Positions 755-31,125 of a stretch of DNA of 64,000 bases are shown here, piece after piece. The position numbers and the translations under genes were made by a program. Within the stretch, counting starts at the first letter, position 1. Each line of letters starts with the position of its first letter. The stretch is taken from NCBI GenBank assembly GCA_038049695.1, contig CP142459.1, positions 65,216,001 through 65,280,000 on the forward strand, written 5' to 3'. Source of the stretch: Cinnamomum chago. Lineage: Eukaryota > Streptophyta > Magnoliopsida > Laurales > Lauraceae. The notes below the pieces were generated by a model that did no database searches, was not told the DNA's origin, and worked only from the letters and a program-made list of their open reading frames with translations.

Positions 755-756
755 AA

Positions 757-770
757 TTTGGTATCAGAGC
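757..770 (+). other. Primer-binding site (initiator tRNA-Met type)
   Basis: TTGGTATCAGAGC lies two bases after the 5' LTR. TGGTATCAGAGC is the standard complement of the 3' end of plant initiator Met-tRNA, used to prime minus-strand DNA synthesis in copia elements. Confidence 0.93.
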
Positions 771-858
771 TAGCAGTTCAGCTGCTACACTTGTCCCTGC
801 TGCAAACCTGTCTGCACAGATTCTGGAGGTGCTGCAACAAAAAAAAGGAGAGTAAGGA

Positions 859-4108: not shown

Positions 4109-4120
4109 ATTAAGGCAAGG

Positions 4121-4429
4121 TGTTAAAATAATTCAAATGTAGATGCTCAAACAGTCATATTGACTGGTCTACAAGTTGATTTTGTCAACAACGTTCACTT
4201 ACACGTTGTGAGCAATTGGTTGTTAGTTTCCCTTCTTTACTCCTTCTTGTATGTAATCATGGGACACTTGTCCTAAGTTTGTTAAGTCTTTTTCAATATA
4301 TAAAAAGGTGCTGTCCTCAGTTGTATTATCATGTAATCGGTAGAAACATTTGAGTTATCAAAGGAAAGTGCTGTGGTCTTTATCCAAAATCCTGTGTGTG
4401 TCTTTACTGTCATTGTACTGTAGCCAACA
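4121..4429 (+). repeat. 3' LTR of copia element 1
   Basis: The 309-bp repeat differs from the 5' LTR at five positions. It is followed directly by GTTAA, the target-site duplication also seen at 441-445. Confidence 0.97.
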
Positions 4430-4434
4430 GTTAA

Positions 4435-5073: not shown

Positions 5074-5564
5074 CAAGGCTTGTAACACCCTAGTGTCTCT
5101 CTTTCTTTCTCAACTTGGTGAGGTGATTGTACTTGCAATATGTGCTTAGTCCTTTTATACTTGCAACTGTCCAACACTGGATACAGCTATGGGGTCCATT
5201 TTCATTTTGACGATATTTTAATGATTATTGGAAACTTTGGTGGCGTCAGTGGAACTTCCTTAAAACTCGATTAATGTGGCTCCCTGGCAAGAGGATCCAG
5301 GCAGTCCATTTAATGGGCCATTTTTAGGATAGGAACCCGACCACCTTATACGAATTATTTAAGCCCGTAGCATCCTCATTAGCTCTGTCAGAGATTAAAT
5401 CACCGGATTATAATCGTATCCCAGCTATGCGAGCTTAAATCCTATCTAGGCAGTAATAGGCCTAAGAATGGCATCTTACCAAAGTGAAAAGGTATGGCAG
5501 TTCTCACATAGGTTATTGGCCAACCCAACCCACGGTTCTATTTGAGAACTTTTACATGTAAAAT

Positions 5565-5810
5565 GAAGTTAAGTAAAGCATCAAATTATAAAAAGAATAA
5601 AATATAGATAGGTTATGATGATATTTTGTCTTTAATTTTTTTGGTAGAGAATTTTTTGACATTTTGTTTTAAAAGTGAGTGTTTTTTTATCTTTTAGTGT
5701 TGAAAGGAGATTGTTTTTTTTACTTTTTATTTTTAAAAAATGAAATAAAATTTAAAAATATGCACTTTTGATGTGACACTTTTTTTAAAATTGGATGCTT
5801 TACTTCACTC
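5565..5810. repeat. Remnant of a Tourist-like MITE family
   Basis: This AT-rich stretch matches, in reverse orientation, the interior of the well-bounded MITE at 57361-57668: shared blocks resemble GTAAAGCATCAAATT, AATAAAATATAGATAGG and GGTTATGATGATATTTT. The ends are too decayed to place. Other parts of 5090-6285 hold shared upstream DNA (to about 5280), a dispersed fragment around 5310-5400 that recurs near 28090 and 31915, and nothing else I recognise. Confidence 0.5.
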
Positions 5811-6284
5811 CACTCTATTCGTGCGCTACAAGCGTAAGTCCCTAATACCTTACTTGTGTGAGTTAATCCCTCTTCATAAAAAAATACAAAAATAAAGGTA
5901 TATAAATGTATAAAGCAATCGGCTTTTTCTTTTTTAAAGCAATGAGCCTTTGCTTTTTTGTTTTTTCTCTTTTTATTTTTATTAGTTGCCATGAATAAAG
6001 GTCAGAGAATACAAATAAGATAAAGCATAAAAATAAAGAAGAATGAAAAAAGAACTCGTGATTTTGCAAAAGCTGTGAAGAATCCAAACAGAGTTTTATT
6101 TTATTTTATTTTTATTCAGAGAGAGTACAGAAGATTAAGCCATCTGAGCAGATTGGCCAGGTCGAGGCACAAGACAGGGATAGGGGACCCGCTGATTGTA
6201 CGGAAAAGCTGTCAAAACTGTGTGCAGACAGACGTGCTTGAGGCCCTCCACACTGAACAGTTCCTTTGAAATTGTTTCAAGTGA

Positions 6285-7190
6285 GAAATTTGGAGCCAGG
6301 ATTTTCAGTATAAGGAATTTTAACTTCTCGTAATGATATTGGAGCCATGATTTTGTCACTTGGTGGATGAGTAATGTTAAATTCCTAAATTAAAGGCCCT
6401 CACCCAAAGATTTGCGGTGCAGGACCAATTAACATTAACAACCATTACATTCTGAATACAACTTGGCGGGCTAAAATTGATATGGAATCAGCTGATCAAG
6501 AGACTAGAGCCTGAATTTTGGAACCTTCATCTATTTCAAGACAACTCAGGCTTGGTCTAGGGGCATCCAAATTAAAACTAAGTACCTGACTGTTATACAA
6601 ACATATATACATGTGTATATTTGTATGTTGTATGCTATACAATATGTACAATTATATACAAGGAATATATATTTTTTTAAGTTTTACACTCTTTTTTCCT
6701 GAAAAATATAAGAAAATCAAATCCAACTCATGAGTTTGGGTAAGTTGGTCTAAACCAACTAAGTTGGGCCTGGATCAAGCATGTTCGGGTCTCACTCACT
6801 TCCTTTTGTTTTTATTAATTTTTTGCTCCGGTAAAATGCCCATACAATGACATACTCATGCTATCCGAGTTCCTATCCAAGAAACCCCAAGTTTGATTCC
6901 TGATCCCTAATTGTATCTATAGACATGGAGATGCCTTACCACCTGGGCTACAAGTGGATTGGTATGTCTCATTCACTTCAAGCTCAGCAACTGACATGCA
7001 TTTCAAATCAAGATTAGGTTGGACCAAACCAATTCACACGTCCCAGTTTACACCTAACTACATGTTCCAAAAATAAAATACTTAAAACACTTACACAGCC
7101 GTGTCAATTTCTTCTGTAGGTGGCGTAGCTACCGCTGCCAACACGACCAGAAAAACCGAAGAATGGAAGTACTTCAAGGAAGCCATGTGA
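6285..7190. repeat. Dispersed segment, copy 1 (contains a secreted-peptide exon)
   Basis: This roughly 0.9-kb stretch recurs twice. Copy 2 is at 12790-12975 plus 27272-27800 (split by copia element 2), and copy 3 is at 33905-34460. Shared landmarks are GGAGCCATGATTTT, the block around GTACCTGACTGTTATACAA, the GTTTGGGTA...TTGGGCCT block, and ACTGACATGCA. In copies 1 and 3 the right end is a short exon coding a signal peptide on the minus strand, so the rest reads as its intron. Downstream (minus-strand) exons were not found. Confidence 0.75.
7095..7186 (-). CDS. First exon of an unidentified small secreted-protein gene (copy 1)
   Basis: Thirty codons plus two bases run from the ATG at 7186 to a consensus donor (GT/GTAAGTG, intron from 7094 downward). 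The product starts MASLKY, has a hydrophobic core (VFLVVLAAVA), then TPPTEEIDTA. This looks like a secretory signal peptide followed by the start of the mature chain. A paralogous exon at 34266-34360 has the same start, the same TEEID motif and the same donor, which supports real coding sequence. I do not recognise the family and found no second exon, so this copy may be partial. Just upstream of the ATG lie a 66-bp duplicated repeat and a hAT insertion in the presumed promoter. Confidence 0.5.
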
Positions 7191-7395: not shown

Positions 7396-8699
7396 TAGAG
7401 ATGTCAAACGGGCCGGGGAAATACCCTGGCACGGCACGGCCCGGCCCACTAGCAGTGCCAGCCATGGGGCGGGCTGGAGAGGGCCGGGTCAGGTGAGCTG
7501 GCCCGCTCTGTTTTTTTTTTCAATATTAAAAAAAGTAGAATACAAGCACGGCCCACTGATCACTTTCATTTAGTGGGCCCCATTATGGATCCCACTTACA
7601 TATGACAACAACTAATATCAATACTTTCTAGAAGCTCGGTTATTGAAATTATCTGTATGCAAATCCAACCAGTCTTACACATAACATGGTCCACTCATTT
7701 ATGTAACTAATAATAACTAATAAAATAAATTTTTATGGTCTGCAATTGATGTTCATATAGCATTCCACCTCAACAGTGGATGCACATGATGCCAATCATA
7801 TGGTCATGTCCTCCTATTGCACGTACGGGCTTGGTAGTGGAACACTTTGATTTTCATGATCACCTTTTCAACCTAGAAAACCTATTCAAATCTTTATAAA
7901 TGTTCTAATTCCTCGAACATAGTAGTTTTTCCCACTCACCTTGGACTGAGTAACCAAATTAAGTCAACATATTTTGAGGTGTGGGTTGGGCTTTCATCCA
8001 AGACTATATTTCTCAATTGAATATTTACCAATTAAGTTAATTTTTGTCTGATAGGTAATTCATTGTCTAAAAGCATCATTTTTTTTATGAGATATTGAGA
8101 AAAGTTCGAGTTACCAAGATTGTTATATACTAGTCGGATAACCACAATGATCAATATCAAACAAATTCTATAATTCTATTTCTCAAAACTTAGATCTGCT
8201 TGAATTATTATCCAAATTTACATAATCAAATATCTAGATCACTAAGAAGTTAAGGTGAGAATATGGAAATCAGATTAAGGGCTTGAAATATTCGAGGGTA
8301 GAGTATTATAAATAATACTAATAAAATTAGAAAAAGAATAGGAGGGTTAGAGTATTATAGACTTTGTAAAATTGAAAATGATACAAAATACCCCTTATAT
8401 GACCGTTTTATGGCTGTTTTTTTTTGGGTGGGGGGGGGGGGGGGGGGTAAAAATGGATATTTTAAAATAAAAAAAAAGAGCCAATTTTGGGCGGACCAGG
8501 CAGGCCGTGCCTTGTGGGCCAGGCGGGCCCATCCTGGCGGGCCTAGCGGGCCGTGGAGGGCAGCCCATGTGCCAGGCGGGCCTGGGCCAACGGGCCTAGC
8601 CTCTTCGGCCCAGGCCATGCCGTTGACCGGGCCGTGCCGGGCCACAGGCTGTTGACTGGCGGGCTGGTTCGGCCCGGTCCAGCCCATTTGACATCTCTA
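7396..8699. mobile_element. Non-autonomous hAT element, 1304 bp
   Basis: The ends are TAGAGATGTCAAACGGGCC and its near-perfect inverted match GGCCCATTTGACATCTCTA. The flanking 8-bp repeats are CTACAGTG (7388-7395) and GTACAGTG (8700-8707), 7 of 8 identical, as expected for hAT. The two ends are GC-rich (GGCCC/GGGCC repeats) while the middle is AT-rich. No transposase frame is present; the short frames in the GC-rich ends are low-complexity. It sits in what would be the promoter of the secreted-peptide exon, because the flanking DNA on both sides matches copy 3 upstream of 34360. Confidence 0.92.
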
Positions 8700-8707
8700 G
8701 TACAGTG

Positions 8708-9569
8708 TGTGGAATATGTACTAGCAAGTGCATATTACAGAGGCGAAGGCAATTGTTTATAGAGTCGTACGATTGGCGTATCTCGATCGTCCATCAGGTG
8801 GATCGGCCTTACATCATCCACTCTTGAAACTCCACATCCCTATTGCAAGTAAATTCAGGTGAGCCAGGCCGATTAATATTCGATTTCAAAACATCGTTTT
8901 GGAGTTTTTTTTTTTGTGGTAAATAGGTTTGGAGAGTTGGTTTGCGCAGTGATCTACGATATCCCATGTCGGTTATTTTCACCCATCCGAGGTCTCCAGG
9001 GAACAACTGAAGTGGTCCTAGTTGGTTCAGTCTTGGCTTGAGGGCCAGTCAATCCATGTACTTAAGCTGATTAGCAGTCTGATAAAATCCAAACCTAATT
9101 ATCAACTTATATTTCATCTCCAAGCAAACATTATGTTTAGGCTTAAGGGCCAGTTTTCACTAGCGGCTCACTTGAAGAGCCAAAGAGGTAAAGGAACGCA
9201 ACAAAATCAAATCAGCTAATATTCCTTTTAAATTAAGTTTGGACTTAAATTCCGTCTTCATGTTGAATGCCATCTAATATATATACTAAATTGAAACTAC
9301 ATTCAGATATAGATAACTAAAACAGGTATAACAGTACTTGCATTATGAAGATAAGGGAACGCTTACTTTGATGACTAACTCAGAAAACACAACAGCTTAG
9401 GCACACGAGCATTGGCGCCAGCAAGACCAACAAAGAAAATTATTTTACAGCTCACTAGTAGGATTGTTGCTTTGCATGATAAGCCTCATTACCCAATACA
9501 GAGTTACTTTAAAGGCAAACTTGATTTACGACATACAGAGCTACATGAAACATACAGTGATAAATGGAA
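8708..9569. other. Intergenic; no gene seen
   Basis: The first about 150 bp match the region upstream of the secreted-peptide exon copy 3 (34390-34680). The remainder, up to the 3' end of DUF247 gene B, shows no coding pattern or repeat ends that I can recognise. Confidence 0.6.
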
Positions 9570-11060
9570 TTAGGGCTTTGGGTGATTGAAATAGGCGAAG
9601 ACGGAATAGTAGGTTTGTAAGAAGGAGAGAATGAGAATTATAATGCCCGCTATCAAGGATATGATTGCCCATGGATTGCTGAAATAATCACGTACCAATT
9701 TCCCCCGCCATTTGGGCCATCTTCTCTTGGTGTATTGGTTAACTTCCCTAAACAAATCAGTTAGGTAATTGTTGTAATGATCCCAGACAAGTACCTTGCA
9801 TAACTTGTTGATGAGAAGTGCCACCTCGTCGTTGCTTCCCAAGTTACTTCTTATGATGTCGGCCTCCCTGAGAATCGACACGTCTCTTGGCGTGTTCACA
9901 AGAAAATCAATGAAGTAGCAGTAGCTTGTAAAGTGATTACCCCATTCAGGATTAGGAAAGCATTGCTCGAAAGCGAGGAAGTTGTGAAAGAAAATACCGG
10001 TGCTCTCGTAGATACAAAGGCGTGACATTTCCATCAATCCTTGTTCAAATCTAACTTGGAAGAAGCTTCTGGCTTGCTTCAACTGAAATCTCACTCCAGC
10101 TTCTTCGAGCTCCGTCGCCGTAGGGATCATATTCCACGGTTTTGGTGTTTCCTGTTTGGACTCTGGTGAGGATTGTAGGCTTGGAGTTCGGTACTTGTCA
10201 TTTATATTGATCAAACATGTAGGACATAGAAAACGGAGGGTTTTTCCTATGTGTTGGCGGAGGGAAGAGAGTTTGCCACAAGCACTCGCAGTTTGAGCTT
10301 TCCCGGTGGGAGGATCAGGTTTGAATGACAAGTGTAGTAAATGAAGCAAATGATGAATACCATGTTCTCCTGGATTCTTCAGCTCAAGCTTATATGAAAA
10401 GAAATACTCATAGTAATTTAAGGCCTCATTTCTTAGTCTATCCCTCGGTTGACCAATGAGCTCCCATAGGCGTTCCAAGACGAAGAAAGGAAGTTGATTC
10501 TCCAAGAGGAGCAGGTCAATGTCTATAACCGTCTCCATCCATTCGTTACCAAAAATTAAGACATCGGATAGAGCCAAACCCATTTGCCGGAGAATTAAGA
10601 AAATAATAAAGCAACCGTCAAGTACCATCATTTCTACAAATTCGTTGCTACTCATTTGGATGTTTTCAGAGTAACAATTTCGTGCTTGCGTTTCTATTTG
10701 CTTCATCTTCTTGAGAAACTTTTCCAAGTTATTTCTGCGTCCTCCAAAAGCAAGGACTTCATGTAGACAGCGCCATTTGTGCTCCTCCATAGCCTGCAGA
10801 TTTTCCATTCCTCGATGAAATGGGCCGATGGAGACGATCGTGGGGTTGTAGGCAGCATGATCACACTCTCGGATACTTGCCGGGACTCGGCAAATGGTGA
10901 ATGCAGAGGAGTTGGGGCCGTCTGTGGAGTCCAGCTTCTTTTGCATGGAACTCAGCCATGAAACATCTATTACAACATCTTCGGCATTATCATCATCTGC
11001 TCCTGCACCTTCTTCTGCTGGGAAGTCTTGTGCTACTAACAACTTATTCCCTTCTGCCAT
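9570..11060 (-). CDS. DUF247 (UPF0481-type) membrane protein, gene B
   Basis: This is an intact single-exon frame of 496 residues, typical for plant DUF247 proteins. The acidic N-terminus (residues 1-35) leads into the DUF247 domain: ICRVPASIRECDHAAYNP, IVSIGPFHRG, MEEHKWRCLHEVL, MVLDGCFIIFLIL, LLLENQLPFFVLERLWELIG, TATELEEAGVRF and a late NLLAFEQC-type block (NFLAFEQCFPNP). The C-terminus ends in a hydrophobic span (AIISLIAGIIILILSFL) followed by a short tail, the usual membrane anchor. The start at 11060 has acidic residues and a spacing that match gene A. The biochemical role of the family is unknown; members have been linked to self-incompatibility and stress. It is the undamaged partner of the disrupted gene A. 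Confidence 0.93.
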   Translation of the reverse strand: MAEGNKLLVAQDFPAEEGAGADDDNAEDVVIDVSWLSSMQKKLDSTDGPNSSAFTICRVPASIRECDHAAYNPTIVSIGPFHRGMENLQAMEEHKWRCLHEVLAFGGRRNNLEKFLKKMKQIETQARNCYSENIQMSSNEFVEMMVLDGCFIIFLILRQMGLALSDVLIFGNEWMETVIDIDLLLLENQLPFFVLERLWELIGQPRDRLRNEALNYYEYFFSYKLELKNPGEHGIHHLLHLLHLSFKPDPPTGKAQTASACGKLSSLRQHIGKTLRFLCPTCLININDKYRTPSLQSSPESKQETPKPWNMIPTATELEEAGVRFQLKQARSFFQVRFEQGLMEMSRLCIYESTGIFFHNFLAFEQCFPNPEWGNHFTSYCYFIDFLVNTPRDVSILREADIIRSNLGSNDEVALLINKLCKVLVWDHYNNYLTDLFREVNQYTKRRWPKWRGKLVRDYFSNPWAIISLIAGIIILILSFLQTYYSVFAYFNHPKP

Positions 11061-11390
11061 CGATCAAGGTTTGTGACGATCAAGGCTCTCTCTTTCTTTC
11101 TCAACTAGGTGAGGTGATTGTACTTTTAAAATGTGCTTAGCCCTTGTTTCATTCTCATCCAACATTGAATACTGCCATTTTATTTTGACGATATTTTAAC
11201 AATTATTGGAAACTTTGGTTAAATTTCATTTTCAGTAAAACTTCCTTCACCCTATTGCAACTGGATTAAGCCATCTGAGCCGATTAGCCAGGGCGAGCCA
11301 CAAGACAGAGAGAGGGGACGGAAAAGCTGCAACAACGGTGGGCCATGACCGATTTTCCTTATAATGAATTTTAACCCACACTTAAAATGT
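11061..11390. other. Upstream region of DUF247 gene B
   Basis: The block about 11085-11260 (TCTCTTTCTTTCTCAACTAGG onward, AGGTGATTGTACTT) is shared with the region upstream of gene A (about 5095-5250), so the tandem duplication included the promoters. A further block at 11265-11330 (GGATTAAGCCATCTGAGC) recurs at 6132-6210. No clear TATA box can be assigned. Confidence 0.55.
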
Positions 11391-12975: not shown

Positions 12976-13172
12976 TGTTATATGATATGGATCTTGGGCA
13001 GATGACCACTTGAGATGAGTTAGGGTTAGAATTAAAGTTCCTCTCTTATGGAGTTACTTTGCCTATAAATAGGCCTCTCTACTTTTGTATTGAACACAGT
13101 TAATGAGATAATAGCAAGGCTCTCTCTTCTCTCCCTAATCTTCTTTCACTTGTCTCTCTCTCTTTTCTAATA
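12976..13172 (+). repeat. 5' LTR of copia element 2
   Basis: The 197-bp repeat contains the promoter-like CCTATAAATAGG near 13062-13073. A primer-binding-site-like CGTTATCAGCACG follows right after it (13173-13185). Confidence 0.93.
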
Positions 13173-16061: not shown

Positions 16062-16079
16062 CACTACAAAAAAAAGGAC

Positions 16080-16255
16080 TTTTAGTCTCGCTTTGAAAGT
16101 GAGCTTTTGTGTCGCTTTTACAATAAAATGACACGGTATGGTCTGATGTGTCACTTTTGTAGGCGGTATGGTCTTATGTGTCACTTTTGTAGCCCACAAA
16201 AAAATATATGGTCTTATGTGTCACTTTTGTAGCCCACAAAAAAATCTTATATCAG
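16080..16255. repeat. Left subterminal repeats of the CACTA element
   Basis: GTGTCGCTTTT and three copies of ATGGTCT.ATGTGTCACTTTTG lie in tandem, the last two with a shared CCCACAAAAAAAT tail. In En/Spm elements such motifs bind TnpA. Confidence 0.85.
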
Positions 16256-16259
16256 TTCC

Positions 16260-17080
16260 ACGTTTTTTTTCCCCCTCCCGCCCGCCTCCAAAACCCTCTT
16301 TTCTGTCCCACGCCTCTCTCTCTCTCCAAAACCCCTCTTTCCACTTGTCTCTCCTCTCACTCTCGTTCTCTCTGCTGTTCTCTGCTCTCTCTCTCTGTCT
16401 CTCACGCTCACTCTCGTTCTCTCTCTCTCTACTATTTCTCTCTCTCGTTCTCACCTCTCCCTCAGGATCCCTCTCACCATCACCCTCCACGTGAGCAATA
16501 CCATCTAGCCCTCCTCCTCCAACCACTGCGCACACCTCACGGCCTATCACTCTCGTCGCCTCCCTGCGTAGAGTCTCCGCAGATATCGCAGCCCATCATC
16601 CATTTCACGCCGCCCTCTCCATCGTCGCCATCTCCTCGTGCGCAGAACCTTGCCAGAGCCTCGGCAGAACCTATCTGGACTCCCCCTCTGGCGCCAATCC
16701 TCTCCACCATCACCGACTACACTTCTGCCCTGAGGCAACGCTCGTTCACGCCTAGACGCCCCTTTCCCCCTCCACGCCAAACCGCACCACTACCATCCAC
16801 AGGTAAGGATCTGTCCCTTCTCTCCCTGTCATCTACACCAACGCCCACTGCCTCTGCTCCCCGGCTCTGCTCCCTGCAACACCCAGTGCCTTGCACCATT
16901 TCACAGCACCTGCGCACAGGCACACCCTTCCCCTCCATCTTCCTTTTGCTTTTCTTTCATTTTCCTTTCCATCACCCTCTCTCTTTCGCCTCGCTGCATG
17001 ATTTGGGGCTTTTGCAAGTAAGTGATTCCAATTTCCCAATTTGCTGTTTCTTCTCTCATTCTGTTTTGAATTAGGTTTTC
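16260..17080. other. Pyrimidine-rich segment, possibly a captured 5' gene end
   Basis: C/T-rich DNA with (CT)n runs (16310-16450) passes into C-rich, less repetitive sequence and then T-rich, intron-like DNA after GCAAGTAAGTG (about 17016). This resembles the 5' UTR and first intron of a plant gene. It has long open frames (for example 16208-17074), but their composition is low-complexity and no domain is recognisable. I see nothing definable in 17080-19720. Confidence 0.3.
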
Positions 17081-19720
17081 CATGTGTGTATGTCGTCTGT
17101 GTTTTTTTTTTTTTTTGGGTGCCGGGGGTCAAAGGAGGCAATTTGTGATTTCTATTGTTCAATTTCTTTTGGGTTTTTCCAAACTTAAGAGCCTTTGGTT
17201 TGTTCTGATCAATCTCTTGGAATTCTTTTGTTTTGAACTATTTTTACTGTGTATTGGGAATTTGGTTCTTCCAAGTTAGTTTTATTTCTTTTGTGTTTTT
17301 GGGCAGGGATTGCAATTGTTGGATTTCTGCGTATTCTTCCACTTCATGTTGAATTGGGACTTTATTTTGTTAAAATGTGTGATCTTTTATGCTTTTCGAA
17401 TTGAGACTGGTTTGATTTATCTTGCTTTGTTGGGATTTAGGCTTTTGGATGCCAGAAATTTGTTGCTTGCGATTGTTGGATTTCTTGATTTTCTTTCACT
17501 TCATGCCCTTCTTCCTCATCGTGCACCCCAACCCACCCCCTGTTGACTTGAAAGTAAACGGTTGGCAACTAGATTTTTCTTTGGCTCTACACGGGAGGAA
17601 TGAGGAATGGTAAATTATCCTAGTCTTAAACTAGCATGGTCTAAGTCATATGGATTATTCTTAGAGTGCTCTATTTCGCTGCTTTGCCACACAATCTCCA
17701 TCTACCAGTGTACATCCGTTGTTGTACTCCACAACACTGGAGCCTCCACTATCCAACGGAATGTATGAAGGTGGGCTCTTTGTTCTGTGGTTTGGCCTTT
17801 GCAATGTAATGAGTTGTGAAGGTTTTTCTGTTGTTCATTCCCTCACAACCATATTCATATCCAAATCCACATTTGGGCATCATGTAATATTTCATTCATT
17901 TATAATTTTTGAATTTCTTCCAAATAAAGCAAAAGATATTAACCTTCTAGGGTTTCTAAATGGGTCTCTTGGTACCTTTCTCATTTGGCTTGAAGCTTGG
18001 TTTCAGGGCAGGTTGTAGAGTTCAAAAAGGAATGATAGAGAAGGAGAAGAGGTCGAGGAAAAGTTTTTTTCTTTTTGGCTTCAACCTTGAAGCTCCAAAT
18101 GACAACTCTTCTCCTGCTCAAGGGTTTCTTCGTGTGGAGTAGGAGAGAGATTTGTTGCAAATTGTAGTTGTATTCAAAGTAAATGAAGATATTCACTACG
18201 TCAAAACAGGTGAAAAGCGACATAGACATGTAAGGAAAAACAAGTAATCTGGACTCTGGTATTTTCTGGCACACGATTTTTCAGAAACCACAGCCGCTCC
18301 TTGTGGTTGTTTTATTTATAACTCTGTTTCTTATTTGTATTATGCTTTATATAAATCATGGAATGCCTGATGGAAAGATGTTTGCTTAATTGCCTATAAG
18401 AAGTTTGATGCATTCAATTATTTCTTCTGATTTTATATTGATGATTCTGTTTTTCTTTATAAAATAATTAAAGCATCATATTCTTGATTTCTTTATAATT
18501 TTGAAGTTGTGGTCAAATAACTAGTTTGAGTGAATGGTGTTTGGTTAAATGCCTGAAATAAATAAAAACTTTGTTAGTTGAAGTTTCATTAGTTCCATTG
18601 TTTTTCTTCAATTTATTTATATTTTAAAGTTTTTTTTCCAATAAAATATAGAACTCAAATTGAGACTTAAACTTACCAAAATGACAAATCTTTAGGACTG
18701 ATGAAGACCAAAAAGAAAAAAATACATATTTTTAACACTTTTAGAAAATTGCACCAGTAACTGTAGTCTCTATTATACTATAATGCTTATAATGCTAAGG
18801 GGTCTGACCAATTAAAGGGAAGATATAAATTGCTTAACATTTTGGAAACAAGACTGAAATTTATCTATTTCTGCTAGTAACGTATGTCGTATGCCACTAT
18901 GTAGTTATTCAAAAACAATACAATTACATAATAACATGTTCGCAGATACTTTGTAAATTGGATAGTATTAATGGTCCTTCAAAATTGTGCTTTATTGTTT
19001 CTTAAAATGAGAAATGGAAATAGAGCTGCTCATATGACAGTTATTTGGATTATTATCTATCCAGTTACAGGTGTTGCACAGTGTGACCATGTTCCAAGCA
19101 TCCAACCATGACCTTTGTAGCTTTAGATTGCTCTTTGTTTTCATGATATATCTAGCATCAGACTTTTTATATTAATTGGTAAGTGCAAGAACTCACCTCA
19201 TGACACCAACTAACATGTGATGTCCTTTGACCCTGTTTTGATCTAAGGAACTTTCTTGCTATACACTAAGTTCTTCTGTAACTCTATTTACATTTATTAT
19301 ACAGCTCTCATTGATTACACTCATTTCATATCAGGGGTACTCAACTCAATATTTTATCTTTTTCCTCAAGCGGCTTGTGATACTTATAATGCAATATTTG
19401 GAATGCAGTTTAAACGGTGACCCTGGTCCCTATAACAGGATTATAAAACAATTGCTTCAATGGAAAGAGATAAAATGACTCTTCGTGCCAAAAAACAAAA
19501 GGAAAGAAATAAAAAGATGGAACAAGAAGTGTAAGAAGGAGATGAACGATCTGCGTCTGAAAAATTCCTATCAGTATTAGGAGGTCCAATCAATAGTAAA
19601 CATGGCCAGCCATGACATGGACCACTGATAATATCAATGATGTCATTCCATCTGCTTATCCTGTTTTTATCATTTCACAGTTGTGGTCTCAAACAAGGTT
19701 GTGAATAGGAGGCTCAAACA

Positions 19721-20056
19721 TCAACAGGCTGACAATTGAGAGATCGTAACAGTGGCATTGGATGCAGATGATGCAGTAGAAGTGGATGTGTCAGTTCTGG
19801 CATTATTATGAACTCTACTAAAAGTTCTATTATTGGTGGCATCAATGAAGGCAGGTCTGTTTAGCCTGATTCCCTGTCCACCTCTTCTCAGCAGAAAAAC
19901 CACGACATCGGACATAGTTGGCCTTGAAGCAGCTGACTGAGTGCACATAAGAGCTATCTGTATTACTTTCTTCACTTCATCAGCTGAGTACTAATTTGGG
20001 TTTAAGCTTTCATCCAATAATTCCATAAGTAGATCTTCCTCATACAGCCTCCATGC
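19721..20056 (-). pseudogene. Captured cysteine-rich receptor-like kinase, last exon
   Basis: This 112-codon exon encodes the end of a CRK2/CRK3-type kinase domain and tail: AWRLYEEDLLMELLDESL, VKKVIQIALMCTQSAASRPTM, then a Ser/Thr-rich C-terminus ending ISQLSAC. The SRPTM motif is the kinase subdomain XI Arg region. It begins right after an intact acceptor (CCAG at 20057-20060). An in-frame TAG at 19991-19993, between NPN and YSADE, would truncate the product; the family usually has an acidic codon there. Confidence 0.88.
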
Positions 20057-20355
20057 CTGGTTAACAACACCACAAAGAAAACACCCAATCATGGTCACAT
20101 TAATCAATAGGAGCCTGGTGTTGCAGACATGGGTAAAAAGGAATCTATTGATATGGATAAATTCCAGAAAAGATGATGGCATTAATGCAAACTGAGTATG
20201 GATCTTCTATGATTTTAATTGTAGAGAGTTTTGCAAAGTAGGCCACCTAGTGGCCCCACTAGGGGATGGGAAGGGTGGGAAAGATGCTTAGGCCTACAGA
20301 TGGTAATAGAGAACCCAAGAATGAGTTCTTGAAAAAGTTTTTGGAGATTAGTTAC

Positions 20356-20506
20356 CCATTCAAGAAGGTATTGTGTGACTGGTTCAGTTTTTATGTGACT
20401 ACACTTCTGACCGCTAATGATTTCCAGGACGACCACACCATAGTTGTATGTGTCAACCTTCTCAGATAACTGCCCGTTGATTGCATACTCAGGTGCTGTG
20501 TAACCC
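20356..20506 (-). pseudogene. Captured cysteine-rich receptor-like kinase, middle exon
   Basis: Fifty complete codons lie between an intact acceptor (AACAG) and an intact donor (GTAACT). The product [20 protein letters not shown] then [10 protein letters not shown] covers kinase subdomains VIII-IX, including the APE motif and the conserved Asp of DxYxxG. The phase joins correctly with the exons on both sides. Confidence 0.9.
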
Positions 20507-20884
20507 CTGTTCAACAAGATATCATGTGCCTTTCAATCAATATAGATGTTCATGATCACTGTAATTTGAGCCTATGCTAATTCATGAAGGCAGGGCGATT
20601 TTACGGTTTAATTCACTAAAGTTGGGCCTAGTCCAGGCATGTTCACATTATACCATATCATGTGTCTTGCATTGACCAACCACCACCACCAATTCTGACC
20701 TTTAATCACAAAAGCTTAGACTGTTAAGCTACAGGGTCAGAAAATTAGGTCCAAGGAGCCCAAAGACAATCGAAATTGACATTTTGTGTTTTGAGCCTTC
20801 ATACTTGACAACAAAATGAGAAGAAATGGAGTTGGAGATTGGGCAGATTCAAAACAAATGTAACAATGGTAATTACTGACTTAC

Positions 20885-20999
20885 AAGGTTCCTGCAAATC
20901 TGGTGTTGAGATGACTCTGGTCCTCTGGAAGTAGTCTTACAAGCCCAAAATCTGCAATTTTGGGCTGAAAATCATCATCAAGTAGTATATTACTGGATT
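20885..20999 (-). pseudogene. Captured cysteine-rich receptor-like kinase, DFG exon fragment
   Basis: This encodes [19 protein letters not shown] then [19 protein letters not shown], which is kinase subdomains VIB (end)-VII with the metal-binding DFG and the activation segment. The donor GTAAGT is intact. The upstream (minus-strand) end fades at about 20999 without the HRD motif, which marks the edge of the captured piece. Confidence 0.88.
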
Positions 21000-21255
21000 C
21001 CATTCACTACATGTCAACAAATAATAAGTGATGACTGTTTCTGAATTGATTTTGACATAATGCAATACTGACATGCTAATTATTGTGAGTTCTGATCTAA
21101 TTGACCTAATTATCGAGCTGCAATATTTTAACTTTGAAGAAACTGTGCTACAGCACTTGAACAATCTTGAATGCATAACTACCATGGTGATTTAAGCAAT
21201 AACAAGTGATGGAATGGAATGCTTTCTTTTGGTCTTTTTCGCTAGGGGCTTAGGA

Positions 21256-21434
21256 CATCTTTTCATTGAAGTGGTCTTCACTTTTCTTGAGTTTCTATGA
21301 GATAATGGAGCTTGGAGGTTAGTTTGATCTATTGTGTGAATTTTTTTTTTTTTAGGTTTTGAAATTTTTGGTGGTGCCTATCACATCATTTTTATTAAAG
21401 TGGTCTTCATTTTTCTTGAGTTTCTATGAGGATC
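21256..21434. repeat. Short direct repeat inside the CACTA element
   Basis: A block of about 45 bp with AAGTGGTCTTCA.TTTTCTTGAG and TTTCTATGAG occurs at 21258-21303 and again at 21389-21432. Its role is unknown. Confidence 0.7.
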
Positions 21435-22158
21435 GCCATCATCTTATTGATTCAGCATGGCAAAGACGGCAGCAGATTGATGGTGGAGAAGAAGCATAGG
21501 AAGTTGAGAACTTTGATTCTTGAGTCTCAGTTGATTGAGGATTTTTATTTGAACATGGAAGTGACTTCTGCAAAGAGAAAAGACAGGACTACGAATTACT
21601 CCTGATCAGGCTTCATAGGTTCTCTTTCTCCTCCCATTCTCTCTCTGTTTTTTTTTTTTTTACTTTTTCAACTTTCTTCTGATCAGTTTACTTTTCCAAT
21701 GTCTTTTTTTTTTTTCCAAAGCATATATGGTTAGGAGAAGTTGTCCATGCCAACTAGAGGATATATTGGTCATTACAGTGAGAATCTTTTGCAATTTTAG
21801 ATCTTTTGCATTTCCTTCTAAAATTGATAAGAATTTTATTAGGTACTCACAGAAAAAAAAAACCTCTGAAATGTCTTAAATCTGTGAAAATTCATCCCTG
21901 ATATCATCACACAAGGTTTTGATGTTATTACTAAATCACCATGGCAACAAAAATAAAACTGACATTGCCTTTCTTGTATGATTTCTCTGTTTCTCACGTA
22001 TGATCTATGCCCTTTTTTGTTATTAGTTGGAAGTAGATGAGCAATGTGCAATGAGAACATGTATGAATAAACACAACCGTGATTTGATATCTTGATGTTT
22101 GTGGCCCCTCCTCCATAGCAAGGTTTAAATGGCTTCTCAATATCAGTGAACCACAAGA

Positions 22159-22372
22159 TTGGATAGATATCTCTCAGCCGACAAGTTTGCTTCATCAAGC
22201 CACTTACACACGACTGCACAACTTGGCTTCCGTGTCTTTGGCCTATTCTTTAAATCGAATAGATACCTTCCTGAGAATGTAGGAATGGACTACTTATTCA
22301 TGGAGACAAATCTCTTTGTTGTAGATTCGTACAACCTCAATGAAAACATCACAGAGGTTTGCCAAGTTTCTA
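22159..22372 (+). other. Exon-like stretch of unknown origin in the CACTA element
   Basis: An open frame contains GLFFKSNRYLPENVGMDYLF, METNLFVVDSYNLNENITEV and ends near a possible donor. Composition is like coding DNA, but I recognise no family. A 126-codon frame on the opposite strand (21839-22219) overlaps it. Either could be a further captured exon or chance. Confidence 0.25.
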
Positions 22373-22625
22373 TGTTCTTTTCTCTTTGTACTACATACAT
22401 TATTTTTAGTTGTCTTGGGTTTTTTCCTTTCTTTGTGAAACTGGTTTCGGTTTCAGTTTCAGTTTCTTTCATTCCTTTTTTTTTTTTTTTTGGGTGATTG
22501 GTTTTAGTTGTTTGGTCTATGGAATTAGTACCTGTTACTTGATCTTTTGTTTGAGATCTGTGTTTTTTTTTCTATTTATTCATCAGTCCTGAGTAGCTGG
22601 TTAAAATATACATGTATTGATAAGT

Positions 22626-22811
22626 TCATAGGTTCTCTGATTTACAATCAGAGGCCAATTGTGGTTTTTTCTTCAAAATGTCAACAATTAAATTGTTAGC
22701 TTTCTCCATTGTCTTCTTCAATTCATCTTCTGACGTTTGATACTTGTTGCAAAAAGATGCAATATGGATCAACCTGCAAATACCACCATCCAAAAGAGAG
22801 GCATGTGACAC
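22626..22811 (-). other. Exon-like stretch of unknown origin, minus strand
   Basis: This 61-codon frame ends in a stop. It contains [20 protein letters not shown] and [18 protein letters not shown], a charged, helix-like C-terminus. No family is recognised. It may be another captured fragment. Confidence 0.25.
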
Positions 22812-23248
22812 TGGCTGCTGGCACTCAGCTCACAAGGACTTCCTCTTAGACTGGTAAATTTGATACTCATCCTTTTCTATTCTTTGTCCACTTGATGTGC
22901 TTATCTATAGTCCCAATACCCATCATCAGTAAGATAAGATTGTCTCACAGTATTGGATTCTGTAATCACCTCACAATTCTATAGGCCCAGATTTAGGGCT
23001 ACCAATAGAAATCTCACATTTTAGTTGGTGCTAATTCTGAGAGCGGTGAGATGAGTTTGAAAAGGGCTGCCAAGAGAAATCTCACATACAGATGCTACTG
23101 ATATAATTCTATTTTCAAAAAATATGATGACAATATAAGTTCACTACAGACCTGCAGCTATTTCTATGTAACTTATATATGCACACATGTGATTAGATTT
23201 CCTTCTTTTCCACTGATGAGACTTTGTTGTTCTTATGGTGAAGTGTAG

Positions 23249-23386
23249 CTTAACCCTACAGAAGTAACTGGTATTATGAATGACTTTGTTGAACCTGGAT
23301 CACTTGCACCAACTGGCTTATTTCTCGGATCCACAAAGTATATGGTGCTTCAAGGCGAGCCAGGGGCTGTTATTCGTGGAAAGAAG
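23249..23386 (+). pseudogene. Captured profilin, exon 2
   Basis: This 46-codon exon sits between intact splice sites (TGTAG before it, GTGATG after it). It encodes the actin-binding profilin core: [39 protein letters not shown] and GKK. The reading frame is undamaged. Exon 1 (about 41 residues, starting MSWQ in plant profilins) is absent from the element. Confidence 0.95.
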
Positions 23387-23934
23387 GTGATGACCCTGTA
23401 ACATTCATTGACTCCATTGTTATAATTCCCTGAAAGGGGATTGCTATCAATCAATACCCAAGTTTGTATTTTGGTCAGCCTAAATAGATGGAATGTTTTA
23501 ATACTCTGGAGAAAATGGATGGTTTTCTAAGTGAGTGTTTGAGGGCCGATGAATATCTGATGTGTACACTTGGGGGCTTGATAAATGTCTGGTGTGTCTC
23601 AAACATGGTTATAAAAATTGACCAATGCATATCGGTTTTTCGGTGCTATAGATGGTTCCGGGCGATATATGTATTGCATATGTATCAGCTCATACACCAA
23701 TATGAATCGAACAGGGCTTTGAAAGAGTAAAAATATAATTGCCATGGTTCAAATGCATGAACAATTACTTTATCTCGTTATCACTCTAACCACAGGGCCA
23801 CAAAACAGTCACTTTCTTTGTAGTAATTATTTTCATGTAACAAATATTTGTTAGTGATGCTGCTCCATGTATAGTTTATGATGCTGCTCCTCTCTGGTGC
23901 GCGTTTTTCATTTGACTCAATGCTTTGTTTTCAG

Positions 23935-24069
23935 GGCTCTGGTGGTGTTACTATAAAGAAAACTGGCCAGGCCTTGGTCATTGGAATCTATGAAAAACCA
24001 GTGACTCCAGGCCAGTGCAACATGGTCGTTGAAAGGCTTGGTGATTATCTTGTTGATCAAGGACTTTAG
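23935..24069 (+). pseudogene. Captured profilin, exon 3 with stop codon
   Basis: An acceptor (TTTTCAG) is followed by 44 codons and [43 protein letters not shown] and QGL. This is the complete conserved C-terminus of plant profilin, including the poly-proline and actin contact regions. Exons 2 and 3 together would give about 90 of the usual 131 residues. The 548-bp intron between them is retained, so capture was from DNA, not from mRNA. Confidence 0.95.
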
Positions 24070-24315
24070 CTTGGGTATGCAACTTTTGGTTCTAATTCTT
24101 TGGTGATGAATTATACAACACTAGCGTTTTGAATTTGATATTCAAGGCTCATGGTTGGATAATCCCCATGAAAGAATCCATGGGCCTGTTTGATTAGCAC
24201 ATGTATATCCTTCCCATTCAACATGCCTTTTCAACCATGGTTCCCTCTTGTATATAAACAAAGCATTTAATTTTGGTGGATTCTTACATATTCATCTTGG
24301 ATATATTTTCTGCAG

Positions 24316-24401
24316 GTGGGGAATTGAAATGCCTGCTATAATTGCCAAATCCATATCCTTACTCTCCGATGCAGGTCTTGGAATGGCCATGTTCAGTTTA
24401 G
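24316..24401 (+). pseudogene. Captured PIN-type auxin efflux carrier exon
   Basis: This 86-bp exon lies between an acceptor (TGCAG) and a donor (GGTGCAT). It encodes [20 protein letters not shown] and LGMAMFSLG, a conserved block in the C-terminal membrane half of PIN proteins. No other PIN exon follows. Confidence 0.9.
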
Positions 24402-24883
24402 GTGCATACCAAATCTCATATTCGAAAAGAGATTCATTGTTGAGAAGTAATGAATGAGTAATGAATGCAGAGCTTCTTAACATTTAGCTTTATTATGTGG
24501 GTGTTCATTTCTTGTTGGATCCACTTGAACCATCTTTTCTTTCTTGTGAAGGTTGCACTCCAAAAATGTTGTTATTTAAAATTGATCTAAAAAAAAATTA
24601 CTTTTTTTTTTGGGTACTTCATATCTCTGTGTTTGAGATGTATATGGCTTGAGTGTGATTCTACACATGGGACCAATAATTTTGGTCCTCATTATTTCTA
24701 CATATATCTTGGACTGCATTATCTAATTTCTCCATTAACTAAATACATATGTGGATTCACATATTGTCATCTCTCTCAATTTTTTCGTTTCTTGTTTGTA
24801 TAGTTTCAAGTACCCAGAAGGCTAGAACTCTGCTTCCTTTGTGTACACTATTAGTATGTGTTACATTTTCCTCCTCTCTCTAG

Positions 24884-24964
24884 GTTCTTGCATATGTTTC
24901 TCAAGTGCATAAAGTTGTACTTCCAGAGGGAGTGGTTGACAACGAGACTGTAACACTTAATCAG
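24884..24964 (+). pseudogene. Captured chorismate synthase, exon a
   Basis: Twenty-seven codons lie between CTAG and GTATGG: VLAYVSQVHKVVLPEGVVDN then ETVTLNQ. This matches the plastid shikimate-pathway enzyme chorismate synthase (EPSP to chorismate, FMN-dependent). Confidence 0.92.
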
Positions 24965-25064
24965 GTATGGTGACTGCTGTTAGTTTTTACTCGATAATGG
25001 TTATTGAATACTGGCGTGTTCTGTGAGTTCCTAATTTTCTGTATTTGATTTTTTTTTCCTCCAG

Positions 25065-25197
25065 ATTGAAAGCAATATGGTAAGGTGTCCAGATCCTGAA
25101 TATGCTGAGAAGATGATTAAGGCCATTGATGAAGTTCGAGTGAGAGGGGATTCTATTGGTGGGGTTTTGACCTGCATTGCAAGAAATGTCCCCCCGT
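25065..25197 (+). pseudogene. Captured chorismate synthase, exon b (frameshifted at the end)
   Basis: This continues [40 protein letters not shown] and NVP. At 25190-25195 a run of six C replaces the five expected before the conserved Arg, so the frame into the next exon is lost. The donor GTAAG is intact. Confidence 0.92.
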
Positions 25198-25309
25198 GTA
25201 AGAATTCAACTTTCCTCATGAATGGTTTGTTAAACTCCAAAGTGTACTCGGATGCTTTGCTTGGATTGTAAAAACTGGACTGATATTTATAAATTCCCTT
25301 TTGTGTCAG

Positions 25310-25412
25310 GGACTTGGTTCACCAGTCTTTGATAAGCTTGAAGCCAAGCTTGCTAAAGCTTGTTTGTCCTTACCTGCATCCAAGGGATTTGAATTTGGCA
25401 GTGGATTTGCAG
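25310..25412 (+). pseudogene. Captured chorismate synthase, exon c
   Basis: After TGTCAG, this encodes [35 protein letters not shown], with donor GTATAT. The exon is complete and contains the conserved [12 protein letters not shown] signature of the family. Confidence 0.93.
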
Positions 25413-25530
25413 GTATATGAGCAAATTTCTCACTAGTCATTGTTTAGTGCTCTTCCTAAAAGATGTATTGTCCATAATGCTTGGACTTGTGGACTTCGGT
25501 TGTAACTGTGTCTCTGAGGCAATCATGCAG

Positions 25531-25585
25531 GTACTTTTATGATGGGGAGTGAGCATAATGATGAGTTTTATGTTAATGATTAATT
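25531..25585 (+). pseudogene. Captured chorismate synthase, exon d (truncated)
   Basis: An acceptor (ATGCAG) leads into TFMMGSEHNDEFYVND and then a stop. The family continues with a Gly-rich FMN-binding stretch, which is absent. Immediately after it, at 25588-25668, comes an open stretch reading MDYGEWTENSRGTYNKWD then GVAHCTTQ. I do not recognise that part; it may be a different captured piece. Confidence 0.85.
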
Positions 25586-26014
25586 GCAGGATGGATTATG
25601 GGGAGTGGACGGAGAATAGCAGGGGCACATACAATAAGTGGGATGGAGTTGCTCACTGTACAACGCAGGTATGGTATTCTCCTTTCATTCCTACAAGGCT
25701 CCTATAGATGTGCTACAGGGCATAATATTGTTCATTAGCACTTCTTTCTCTTCTTGGTTACAACAAAGGTGTTAATTCCTCAGTTTGTTATGTTGGTCTG
25801 TCATTCCTCCATTATCTTACATGAAGGTGTCGGTTTCATGGTTTGTGGAACTTTTATTTGTCATTCCTAAATTTGTTATGTCTTCTCATATCATTGATTG
25901 ATTAGATTCATGTAGAAATGGTTGTGATAGGGTTGATTTGAAAGTGTATCCATACTGCAGCATGTTATTAGTAATGTATATATTGCATTTTTTTTTTTTT
26001 AAAATGGATGGTAT

Positions 26015-26346
26015 CTCGCTTCTATGGAAAGTGTCACAACTGATGACTACTTGTGTCACTTTTGGTCCGAAAACAACATATTGATCACTGCTTTTGAAAA
26101 GGGAGACAACAAAGTTATCTTTCTTGTGACGCTTTTAAGTTATTTCAGTGTCACTTTTGGGTTTAAAGTGACACAAGTAACCATTTTTTTGTGTCACTTT
26201 GATAACAGAAACTGACACAACAAATGTATTTCTTGAGACGCTTTTACAAACTTTTAGTGACGCCGGCAGATAAGACGCTTGCATAGTAATCAGAAAAGCG
26301 ACACAAACCACTTTTTAAGACACTTTAAAAGTGACTCATTAAGACA
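26015..26346. repeat. Right subterminal repeats of the CACTA element
   Basis: At least eight GTGTCACTTTT, GTGACGCTTTT or AAAGTGACAC words occur in both orientations, mirroring the left end. Confidence 0.85.
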
Positions 26347-26360
26347 TTTTTTTTGTAGTG

Positions 26361-27069: not shown

Positions 27070-27266
27070 TGTTATATGATATGGATCTTGGGTGGATGCC
27101 CACTTGAGATGAGTTAGGGTTAGAATTAAAGTTTCTCTCTTGTGGGGTTACTTTGCCTATAAATAGGCCTCTCTACCTTTGTATTGAACACAGTTAATGA
27201 GATAATAGCAAGGCTCTCTCTTCTCTCCCTAATTTTCTTTCACTTGTCTCTCTCTCTTTTCTAACA
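27070..27266 (+). repeat. 3' LTR of copia element 2
   Basis: This is a 197-bp match to 12976-13172. It is preceded by the polypurine tract AAGGGGGAG (27061-27069) and followed by AGAAC. Confidence 0.95.
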
Positions 27267-29789: not shown

Positions 29790-31125
29790 TTCCCTTGCTT
29801 TATGCTCTATATTTACTTTCTTATTAAAATGGTGATTTAACAAACTCCATAAATGCTACACGTTTTTCTCCTTGAGATATTTAACTTGAGTTACTTGTTG
29901 GACTGCAGCTTCTCTCCTTGAGAGTTGCAAGTTTTTATTTGCCTTACAGGTAGTTACAACTACTTACAATGCTCTACACTTAAAATGCAAGTAGTTAAAA
30001 TTGGCTTTATGCTCTACATTTACTTTCCTATTAAAATGCTGATTTAACAAACTCCATAAATGCTACACGTTTTTCTCCTTGAGATATTTAACTTGAGTTA
30101 CTCATTGGACTGCAGTTTTTGTCCTTGAGAGTTGCAAGTGTTTACTTGCCTTACAGGTAGTTAGAACTACTTACAATCAGTGGCGGAGCCACATTGAGGC
30201 CTGGGGGCCCCCTGGCCCCCCCCCCCCCCAGCCTTTAGAAAATCCTTTTAAAACATTCAGCAATGACCATGCACAGCATTGAGAATTTGAACTTCTCCAC
30301 TTTGGCCCCCCCCAGCCTTTACAAAATCCTTTTAAAACATTCAGCAATGACCATGCACAGCATTGAGAATTTGAACTTCTCCACTTTGGTTATTTTACAG
30401 GCAATGACCATGCAGCAGCTCTCCTGAGAAGGTGCAACCGGCTGTCCGAGGGTCAGAACATACTTATCACATTGCAATATTAGGTTCTGCAAATTACCTT
30501 GGCAGTCTTGAGTGCCTCCGGCCAGTGGCGGAGCCACATTGAGGCCTGGGTCCCCCCCCCAGCCTTTAGAAAATCCTTTTAAAACAGTAAAATGCAACCC
30601 CCCCCCCCAAGAAGAAATCCTGACTCCGCCCCTGCTTACAATGCTCTACACTTAAAAATGCAAGTAGTTAAAATTGGCTTTATGCTCTACATTTACTTTC
30701 TTATTAAAATGCTGATTTAACAAACTCCATAAATGCTACACGTTTTTCTCCTTGAGATAATTAACTTGAGTTACTCATTGGAAGTTTTTGTCCTTGAGAG
30801 TTGCAAGTGTTTACTTGCCTTACAGGTAGTTAGAACTACTTACAATGCTCTACACTTAAAATGCAAGTAGTTAAAATTGGCTTTATGCTCTACATTTACT
30901 TTCTTATTAAAATGCTGATTTAACAAACTCCATAAATGCTACACGTTTTTCTCCTTGAGATATTTAACTTGAGTTACTCGTTGGACTGCAGTTTTTGTCC
31001 TTGAGAGTTGCAAGTGTTTATTTGCCTTACAGGTAGTTAGAACTACTTACAATGCTCTACACTTAAAATGCAAGTAGTTAAAATTGGCTTTATGCTCTAC
31101 ATTTACTTTCTACAATCCTCTCGCC
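29790..31125. repeat. Tandem array of a 207-bp unit, about 4.5 copies
   Basis: The landmark CTTTATGCTCTACATTTAC starts at 29798, 30005, 30678, 30881 and 31088. The spacing is 203-208 bp once the hAT insertion in copy 2 is removed. Each unit also holds GCTACACGTTTTTCTCCTTG and CTTACAGGTAGTTA. No coding frame is present. Confidence 0.92.
30178..30634. mobile_element. Non-autonomous hAT element, 457 bp, in the tandem array
   Basis: The ends are CAGTGGCGGAGCC and GACTCCGCCCCTG, with a perfect 8-bp duplication CTTACAAT on each side (30170-30177 and 30635-30642). Inside, a block of about 75 bp (AGCCTTTA.AAAATCC to CTCCACTTTGG) is duplicated at 30231 and 30315. A second CAGTGGCGGAGCC end at 30524 suggests a nested or rearranged copy. 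C runs are frequent. Confidence 0.93.

Follow-up and report, generated by a model that had tools for sequence, protein, structure and literature searches.

Introduction

There is as yet no settled account of how DNA transposons of plants acquire host genes. Capture by the Pack-CACTA elements of Arabidopsis, rice and maize has been explained by the fusion of neighbouring insertions (PMC8903248), and the authors of work on animal Pack-TIR elements regard a gap-filling model as worth exploring for plant Pack-MULEs (PMC8277862). The window analysed here, a 64,000-nucleotide stretch of Cinnamomum chago DNA, contains an element (W) that raises the question of which route was taken. One genome, studied in one assembly, shows this element before and after a capture, with the donor in place and the junctions at base resolution, so that the two published models can be distinguished for the capture of its kinase piece.

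Results

W is bounded by the following features.

16062..26360, + strand: W, the entire Pack-CACTA element (10,299 bp), delimited by perfect 14-bp terminal inverted repeats, sister ends and empty copia copies
16062..16075, + strand: 5' terminal inverted repeat, CACTACAAAAAAAA
16109..16228, + strand: 5' subterminal GTGTCACTTTT array, 4 copies with at most one mismatch
26053..26337, both strands: 3' subterminal array, 6 copies with at most one mismatch
26347..26360, - strand: 3' terminal inverted repeat, perfect reverse complement of CACTACAAAAAAAA
12976..13170, + strand: one LTR of the host copia, 95.9% identical to 27070-27264
27070..27264, + strand: the other LTR of the host copia, 95.9% identical to 12976-13170

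An earlier note on this DNA described perfect 14-bp inverted ends, subterminal arrays and no visible transposase, and we find the same. A 13-mer of the W end matches without mismatch at both ends of W and nowhere else in the window, and GTGTCACTTTT (at most one mismatch) occurs 13 times in the window, 10 of them within the two ends of W, compared with a whole-window expectation of 1.79 and a maximum of 5 in 100 shuffles. Six-frame translation of W gives no Pfam match to a transposase, the TNP2-type domain PF02992 included, and W is therefore non-autonomous. Helitrons end without inverted repeats, and Mutator-like elements have long inverted repeats and duplications of ~9 bp; both identities are ruled out by the 14-bp CACTA repeats of W and the 3-bp duplications of its sister copies. 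CACTA-type (En/Spm) terminal inverted repeats, subterminal motifs on both sides, host gene fragments whose donors lie elsewhere and several copies with common cargo together confirm W as a non-autonomous CACTA (Pack-CACTA) element.

A genome search for other copies, which the earlier note had proposed, places the 28-bp family end (at most one mismatch) at 350 sites, with none for the reversed control, and recovers three sisters, S1, S2 and S3, that carry all of the W cargo minus the kinase piece. S1 (9,036 bp) and S2 (8,868 bp) align with W from end to end except for that piece, at 97-99% identity piece by piece, and the 3-bp target duplications are perfect in 7 of the 7 sisters for which both termini are available. 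Of the places at which one chorismate synthase exon occurs, 13 lie within family elements, W counted, and a 14th adjoins one. Of 1,658 candidate places for PF02992 elsewhere in the genome 150 were scored, and a comparison by eye placed none of them within 15 kb of 100 listed family ends (of 350), so that no autonomous partner emerged from this set. Mobilisation of W presumably depended on a CACTA transposase supplied in trans from another locus.

W sits in the RNase H frame of a copia element, as the earlier note had it. Seven of seven other copia copies that read across the insertion point are uninterrupted and lack W (40 full-length places scored, the W locus included, among 424 candidates). 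These whole copies, together with sisters that bear the same two ends and 3-bp duplications at other places, support the proposal that W is one mobile unit. The filled site reads TGTAA, element, ATGCC and the empty copia site TGTAATGCC, which gives a duplication of 1 bp where a clean insertion of a CACTA element should leave 3 bp.

The interior of W is a row of pieces of different origin.

16062..18193, + strand: ancestral left part, common to the 5.2-kb T class
18194..18308, + strand: second CACTA-like family terminus (CACTACGTCAAAACAGG...) and adjoining piece, beginning exactly at the T junction
18309..19486, + strand: dispersed repeat R, part 1
19487..20993, - strand: receptor-kinase (CRK) fragment, three exons, 1,507 bp, in W only
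20994..22434, + strand: dispersed repeat R, part 2, with 92 bp of R absent between the parts
22449..23061, + strand: piece common to L039, L040 and W, including a weak CCCH zinc-finger-like ORF
23062..23091, + strand: ~30-bp filler, replacing ~700-750 bp kept in L039 and L040
23092..24098, + strand: profilin fragment, exons 2 and 3, stop codon 24067-24069
24099..24414, + strand: PIN auxin-carrier fragment, one exon at 24316-24401 (PIN1, 3.5e-10)
24415..26360, + strand: ancestral right part, common to the T class
24654..25579: chorismate synthase homology within the ancestral right part

This cargo was assembled in steps. W, S1, S2 and S3 group with T1-T5 (support 100/99) in a tree with six outer copies, all of the T form, that was rooted at its midpoint and whose bootstrap is not settled. 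Eight of eight T copies tested contain the whole T middle or most of it, and it was not found in W, in S4 or in the S1-S3 loci covering that stretch; tree and middle together place T before S. Carriage of the chorismate synthase piece dates back to the ancestral 5.2-kb T form. In one lineage the 1,121-bp middle of this form was then swapped for a block that opens with the second CACTA terminus, followed by repeat R and a profilin-PIN chimera. Outside W and S1-S3, relatives of the CACTACGTCAAAACAGG family occur at 31 places, against none for the reversed control, and the other end of this family was not found within W. Since the second step begins at a CACTA-like terminus, it may have used the neighbour-insertion route, the other published mode of capture. 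Six frames of L034 reveal no Pfam domain in repeat R.

Protein and domain matches bear out the profilin exons 2 and 3, the single PIN exon and the chorismate synthase exons proposed earlier: the two profilin exons match Pfam at E values of 9.9e-7 and 1.1e-14, and exon 2 has a best PDB profilin match of 7.7e-20. Over 927 bp of exons and introns, the chorismate synthase piece shares 98.1% identity with a gene copy in the genome, and the kinase piece is 98.6% identical to its gene. This supports capture at the DNA level, as was claimed; a retrocopy origin is rejected, with introns retained. Parental candidates named for a search are also present, namely chorismate synthase gene copies and a profilin gene that includes exon 1. 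The C1 gene is an unlikely direct source of the profilin fragment (95.4% over 762 aligned bases, versus ~99% for dispersed copies). The profilin-PIN fusion, with a junction common to both, already exists at five places outside the W family. Pieces of several host genes are present in W, but they were not four independent captures. The earlier note held that this combination would be a new example; only the kinase piece is special to W, and the remainder recurs in S1, S2 and S3. ORF 22700-22849 gives a CCCH zinc-finger-like match of 16.2 bits, under the Pfam cut-off of 20.5, and is a tentative candidate for a zinc-finger fragment. As judged by eye, the filler at 23062-23091 resembles sequence ~80 bp upstream, and a 12-bp filler at 23852-23863, in place of ~260-440 bp of profilin intron, also resembles nearby sequence.

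The cargo pieces tested show no visible selection. Variable sites among 11 copies number 20/377 in chorismate synthase exons, 26/561 in its introns and 60/1,006 in the rest of the right part. Between the kinase piece and its donor, exons (8/577 sites) and the remaining sequence (13/930) differ to an equal degree. Purifying selection leaves no sign in the chorismate synthase exons (11 copies) or in the kinase piece (against its donor).

The kinase piece permits the capture itself to be read. Its donor, C8:11856896-11858402, lies on a different contig, and with all 11 candidates in the genome scored, the full-length piece occurs at two places only, W and this donor. The donor gene encodes a kinase domain and two Stress-antifung (DUF26) stretches, which make the label of cysteine-rich receptor-like kinase correct; with the domain matches they uphold the antisense CRK exons of the earlier note and supply the parental locus that it asked for. 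On its 5' side the fragment breaks off within an exon that in the donor continues and contains the catalytic-loop motif. In W only, 1,507 bp of this DNA replace 92 bp of R, a stretch preserved at 100%, 100% and 97.8% identity in three R copies outside the family. Among 13 R copies listed with both sides of the capture point, 11 run through it (S2, S3 and nine from outside the family), S1 bears a tandem duplication at this point, and W alone has the kinase piece, so W is the derived form. The junctions show microhomologies of 2 and 4 bp; of 200,000 random breakpoint pairs, 0.75% combine 4 or more on one side with at least 2 on the other.

Apart from the captured piece, the 14.5 kb around the donor are free of W and T sequence; they also lack family ends and GTGTCACTTTT, and hold three CACTA-like matches of 8 letters. 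A hairpin at the capture site is unsupported (z-score -0.19). Polarised by a paralogue over 458 sites, six of eight differences fall on the W side, one on the donor side and one is ambiguous. W and donor diverge by 1.39% (21/1,507), and W diverges from S1 and from S2 by 0.80% (70/8,735 and 70/8,744). This is a puzzle: the capture should postdate the split of W from the sisters, yet the W-donor divergence exceeds that between W and sisters. Perhaps the real donor was a different allele from the one sequenced, or sister copies exchange sequence with one another.

Discussion

We consider it highly probable that W is a non-autonomous Pack-CACTA that grew by steps, the kinase step being templated repair of a double-strand break. 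The donor is still in place, the element lost little, both junctions carry microhomology and the pre-capture state is known, as gap filling predicts. A break would arise inside the element, one broken end would copy an ectopic template, the other would rejoin through a few matching bases, and the cargo would afterwards drift unselected. Several small internal scars, together with the kinase step, probably reflect the same templated break repair within the element.

Two other origins of the kinase piece fit less well. Had two family elements flanked the kinase gene, lost their inner ends and moved with the gene piece between their outer ends, W would follow the scheme proposed for Pack-CACTA and other Pack-TYPE elements of Arabidopsis, rice and maize (PMC8903248), and its older block does start exactly at a second CACTA-like family terminus, 18194; however, both kinase junctions lie inside R, which is uninterrupted in 11 of the 13 copies listed with both sides, and the donor sits on another contig with no family sequence in the 14.5 kb around it, making this improbable. 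Entry as the cargo of another transposon inserted into W is more improbable still: nested transposons are common here and W contains that second terminus, but there is no target duplication, 92 bp are missing instead, both junctions are short overlaps of 2 and 4 bp, and the full-length piece is found nowhere besides W except in its own gene.

The 1-bp duplication bears on two further readings. That W was pasted into copia by repair rather than by ordinary transposition would account for the difference between TGTAATGCC and TGTAA/ATGCC and for the contrast with the 3-bp duplications of seven of seven sisters; both W ends are nevertheless intact to the final base, which repair would presumably seldom achieve, and it is simpler to suppose that 2 bp were lost from one edge once the element had inserted, so we regard such an arrival as unlikely. 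The missing 3-bp duplication and the single assembly could also point to an artefact of assembly, or to normal local gene pieces that happen to lie in a row, rather than to one element. This we judge exceedingly improbable, given sisters elsewhere with the same ends and order at 97-99% identity, their perfect duplications where both ends are read, copia copies complete without the insert, and 21 site differences between kinase piece and donor where a misjoin would give none.

Templated break repair thus best describes the kinase step, and the earlier step at a second CACTA-like terminus suggests that both routes may operate in one lineage. Within a 9-kb element, one and the same stretch of <200 bp was affected by the kinase capture in W and by a 138-bp tandem duplication that arose independently in S1. 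A broader view, in which plant CACTA capture is chiefly the copying of distant templates into interior breaks at a break-prone spot and a shared pool of fragment mosaics is repeatedly recombined, is speculative and rather doubtful. This is a single capture event, from which a rate is not derivable; its value is that the donor, sisters in the pre-capture state and the junctions are all known for it.

W adds another example to a known kind, the gene-carrying CACTA elements. Like Tgm-Express1, described as a soybean CACTA that lies in an intron of flavanone 3-hydroxylase and carries five fragments of host genes (PMC1947982), W holds fragments of several unrelated genes with exons and introns kept; unlike Tgm-Express1, whose exons were shown spliced into transcripts (PMC1947982), it is described here at the DNA level, with donor, sisters and empty sites. 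It resembles the Pack-CACTA elements described in Arabidopsis, rice and maize as a non-autonomous, multiplied family with CACTA ends and captured coding DNA, whereas its newest capture misfits the fusion of neighbouring insertions put forward for them (PMC8903248). CACTA-captured genes of wheat chromosome 3B are likewise described as showing many captures and exon shuffling, with purifying selection on part of them (PMC4290129), in contrast to the chorismate synthase exons of the W family, which vary as much as its introns. The capture recalls gap-filled animal Pack-TIR elements, as described in PMC8277862, in being internal, with short microhomology, a small loss and the donor left behind; donors lie on the same chromosome in 59.8% of 281 animal cases (PMC8277862), whereas W is a plant element and its kinase donor is on another contig.

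Ends, cargo and copies of the family

We find that W, the 10,299-bp Pack-CACTA element, has the inverted ends and subterminal arrays claimed for it in the earlier note and that no transposase is found in it; Pfam or solved structures recognise each of its fragments of profilin, PIN and chorismate synthase. The antisense kinase piece (1,507 bp, window 19487-20993) matches the final portion of a kinase domain and was rightly named a cysteine-rich receptor-like kinase (CRK), the donor gene having two Stress-antifung (DUF26) stretches. The window spans C9:65216001-65280000 in a 1.06-Gb assembly. Across that assembly, the terminal 14-mer of W occurs 965 times, versus 110 for its reversed control, and its first 28 bases, allowing one mismatch, at 350 places versus 0. 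A whole-element search gives at least 60 matches with 39 of 2,702 candidates scored, and other copies with the same ends, which the earlier note proposed looking for, include four sisters (S1–S4) and a shorter class, T.

Copies of the W family (C, contig)
C1:76352037-76361072, S1, near-complete sister
C6:38083856-38092723, S2, near-complete sister
C1:56843419-56865573, S3, interrupted sister
C5:36210626-36218561, S4, shortened form
T class, ~5.2 kb, both ends in hand for four (T1–T4)

Perfect 3-bp target duplications flank seven of seven copies (S1, S2, S4 and T1–T4). Comparison by eye of the scored transposase places with the family ends listed identified no autonomous partner.

Insertion into the host copia

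W lies in a copia whose LTRs (window 12976-13170 and 27070-27264) are 95.9% identical. A search with the 3' part of this copia finds at least 40 full-length places, W's own included (40 of 424 candidates scored), and the comparison with empty copies proposed earlier shows the insert to be absent from all seven of the 39 other places that were read across the junction. The empty sites read TGTAATGCC in six and TGTAACGCC in one, and the filled site is TGTAA-element-ATGCC, so that a single A is duplicated at W. W thus lacks a 3-bp target duplication, which counts against our reading; we take the 1-bp duplication as a former 3-bp duplication minus 2 bp, an intermediate being seen in no copy.

Window 6324-7091 is a paralogue of both outer flanks of the W-bearing copia, with ~5-bp overlap, and the unoccupied counterpart of that copia's own insertion site lies near 6503-6508. 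Another copia (446-4429; LTRs 446-754 and 4121-4429, 98.4% identical) is inserted in a stretch resembling a DUF247 gene, and the DUF247 gene at 9576-11063 shows the uninterrupted site. The window also holds two IRX15-like gene copies (44028-44987 and 48448-49410) in a duplication 82% identical over ~1.7 kb, a tandem ~205-bp unit (29797-31111; copies 94-97% identical, broken by another repeat) and an exon-like piece of a queuine tRNA-ribosyltransferase gene (54564-54875; Pfam 7.3e-10).

An older form and a second block

W and T share element positions 1-2132 and 8354-10299, counted from W's first base. The T-specific middle (1,121 bp) is present wholly or mostly in 8/8 T copies tested; W, S4 and those S1–S3 loci covering that stretch showed no trace of it. 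In a midpoint-rooted tree of the left part, with bootstrap not settled and S4 left out, W, S1–S3 and T1–T5 form one group (100/99), outside which lie six copies, all of them T, so that T, judged from sequence, is the older form of the family. The chorismate synthase piece is already in T: of the genome places of one of its exons, 13 are inside family elements (counting W), a 14th is next to one, and a few more are on C3, C4 and C6. Copies of the gene itself occur around 36.2 Mb of C4, and one matches the piece at 98.1% identity over 927 bp. Across 11 copies of the family, the exons (20/377) vary as often as the introns (26/561), so nothing suggests that selection keeps this cargo.

In W and S1–S3, a block in place of the T middle begins, to the base, with CACTACGTCAAAACAGGTGAAAAGCGAC, which occurs with up to three mismatches at 35 genome places, four of them W and S1–S3 (reversed control, 0). 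It appears to be the terminus of a different dispersed family, whose other end was not found within W. After 115 bp comes R, a dispersed repeat present at nine places outside the family; next are a piece common to two other loci (L039 and L040), the profilin fragment and a single PIN exon. Outside the family, the junction of profilin with PIN recurs at five places, some of these chimeras being joined to further repeated pieces. Assembly of the chimera therefore probably preceded its entry into the element. This second step may have taken a neighbour-insertion or nested-insertion route.

Larger mosaics, parts of which recur separately at many places, enclose the profilin-PIN chimera at L058, L041 and neighbouring loci (C5:22.81 Mb, C6:1.21 Mb). 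At C2:1927998 and C2:1928676, a W-family end is separated by ~650 bp from one of the second CACTA-like family, a possible second case of one such family nested in the other.

Capture of the kinase piece

Among family copies, only W carries the kinase piece. S2 has 92 bp in its place, which three R copies outside the family match at 100%, 100% and 97.8% identity. Thirteen R copies are listed with both sides of the capture point, and 11 are uninterrupted (nine outside the family, S2 and S3); the others are W and S1, the latter with a 138-bp tandem duplication overlapping the site. The search for a parental CRK locus leads to a gene at C8:11856896-11858402, the sole other full-length place of the piece (next-best genome match, 91% over 458 bp). 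The piece ends mid-exon in W, and the same exon runs on in the donor. Donor bases GT and TGGA are shared at the junctions; 0.75% of 200,000 simulated breakpoint pairs have at least four on one side and two on the other. In the 14.5 kb around the donor, family ends and GTGTCACTTTT are absent and the kinase piece itself is the sole W or T sequence; three 8-letter CACTA-like matches are present. No unusual folding was found at the capture site.

Under the neighbour-insertion model (PMC8903248; also summarised in PMC13317346), two family elements flank a gene, lose their inner ends and mobilise by their outer ends together with a piece of it. As an origin of the kinase piece this does not fit: donor surroundings (14.5 kb) free of family sequence, junction microhomology and an R uninterrupted in 11 of the 13 listed copies are at odds with it. 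These marks match the gap filling described for animal elements (PMC8277862). The piece probably entered W by templated gap filling, in which a break inside the element is repaired by copying an ectopic template and the other end is rejoined through a few matching bases. Divergence does not give the expected order: it is 1.39% between W and the donor and 0.80% between W and either S1 or S2, the wrong order if the kinase was captured last and the sequenced allele is the donor; polarised changes are mostly on the W side (6/8, over 458 sites).

Other scars occur in the family. Two fillers in the profilin part resemble nearby sequence by eye and look to have been copied from close by, and S4 lacks W positions 1396-6777, the two sides being joined through ~5 bp of filler.

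Comparison with known captures

Multi-gene capture by CACTA elements is, as the earlier note held, established. Published cases are a soybean element with five gene fragments (PMC1947982), a single wheat chromosome with 140 capture events (PMC4290129, which also mentions Ipomoea and sorghum) and multi-gene capture in grapevine (PMC2528002). Chimeric or antisense transcripts were shown for Tgm-Express1 (PMC1947982), and are possible from W. Among the papers listed from open-access literature, we found no plant CACTA case uniting donor, pre-capture sisters and junctions. The kinase capture in W bears the marks described for animal elements formed by gap filling (PMC8277862).
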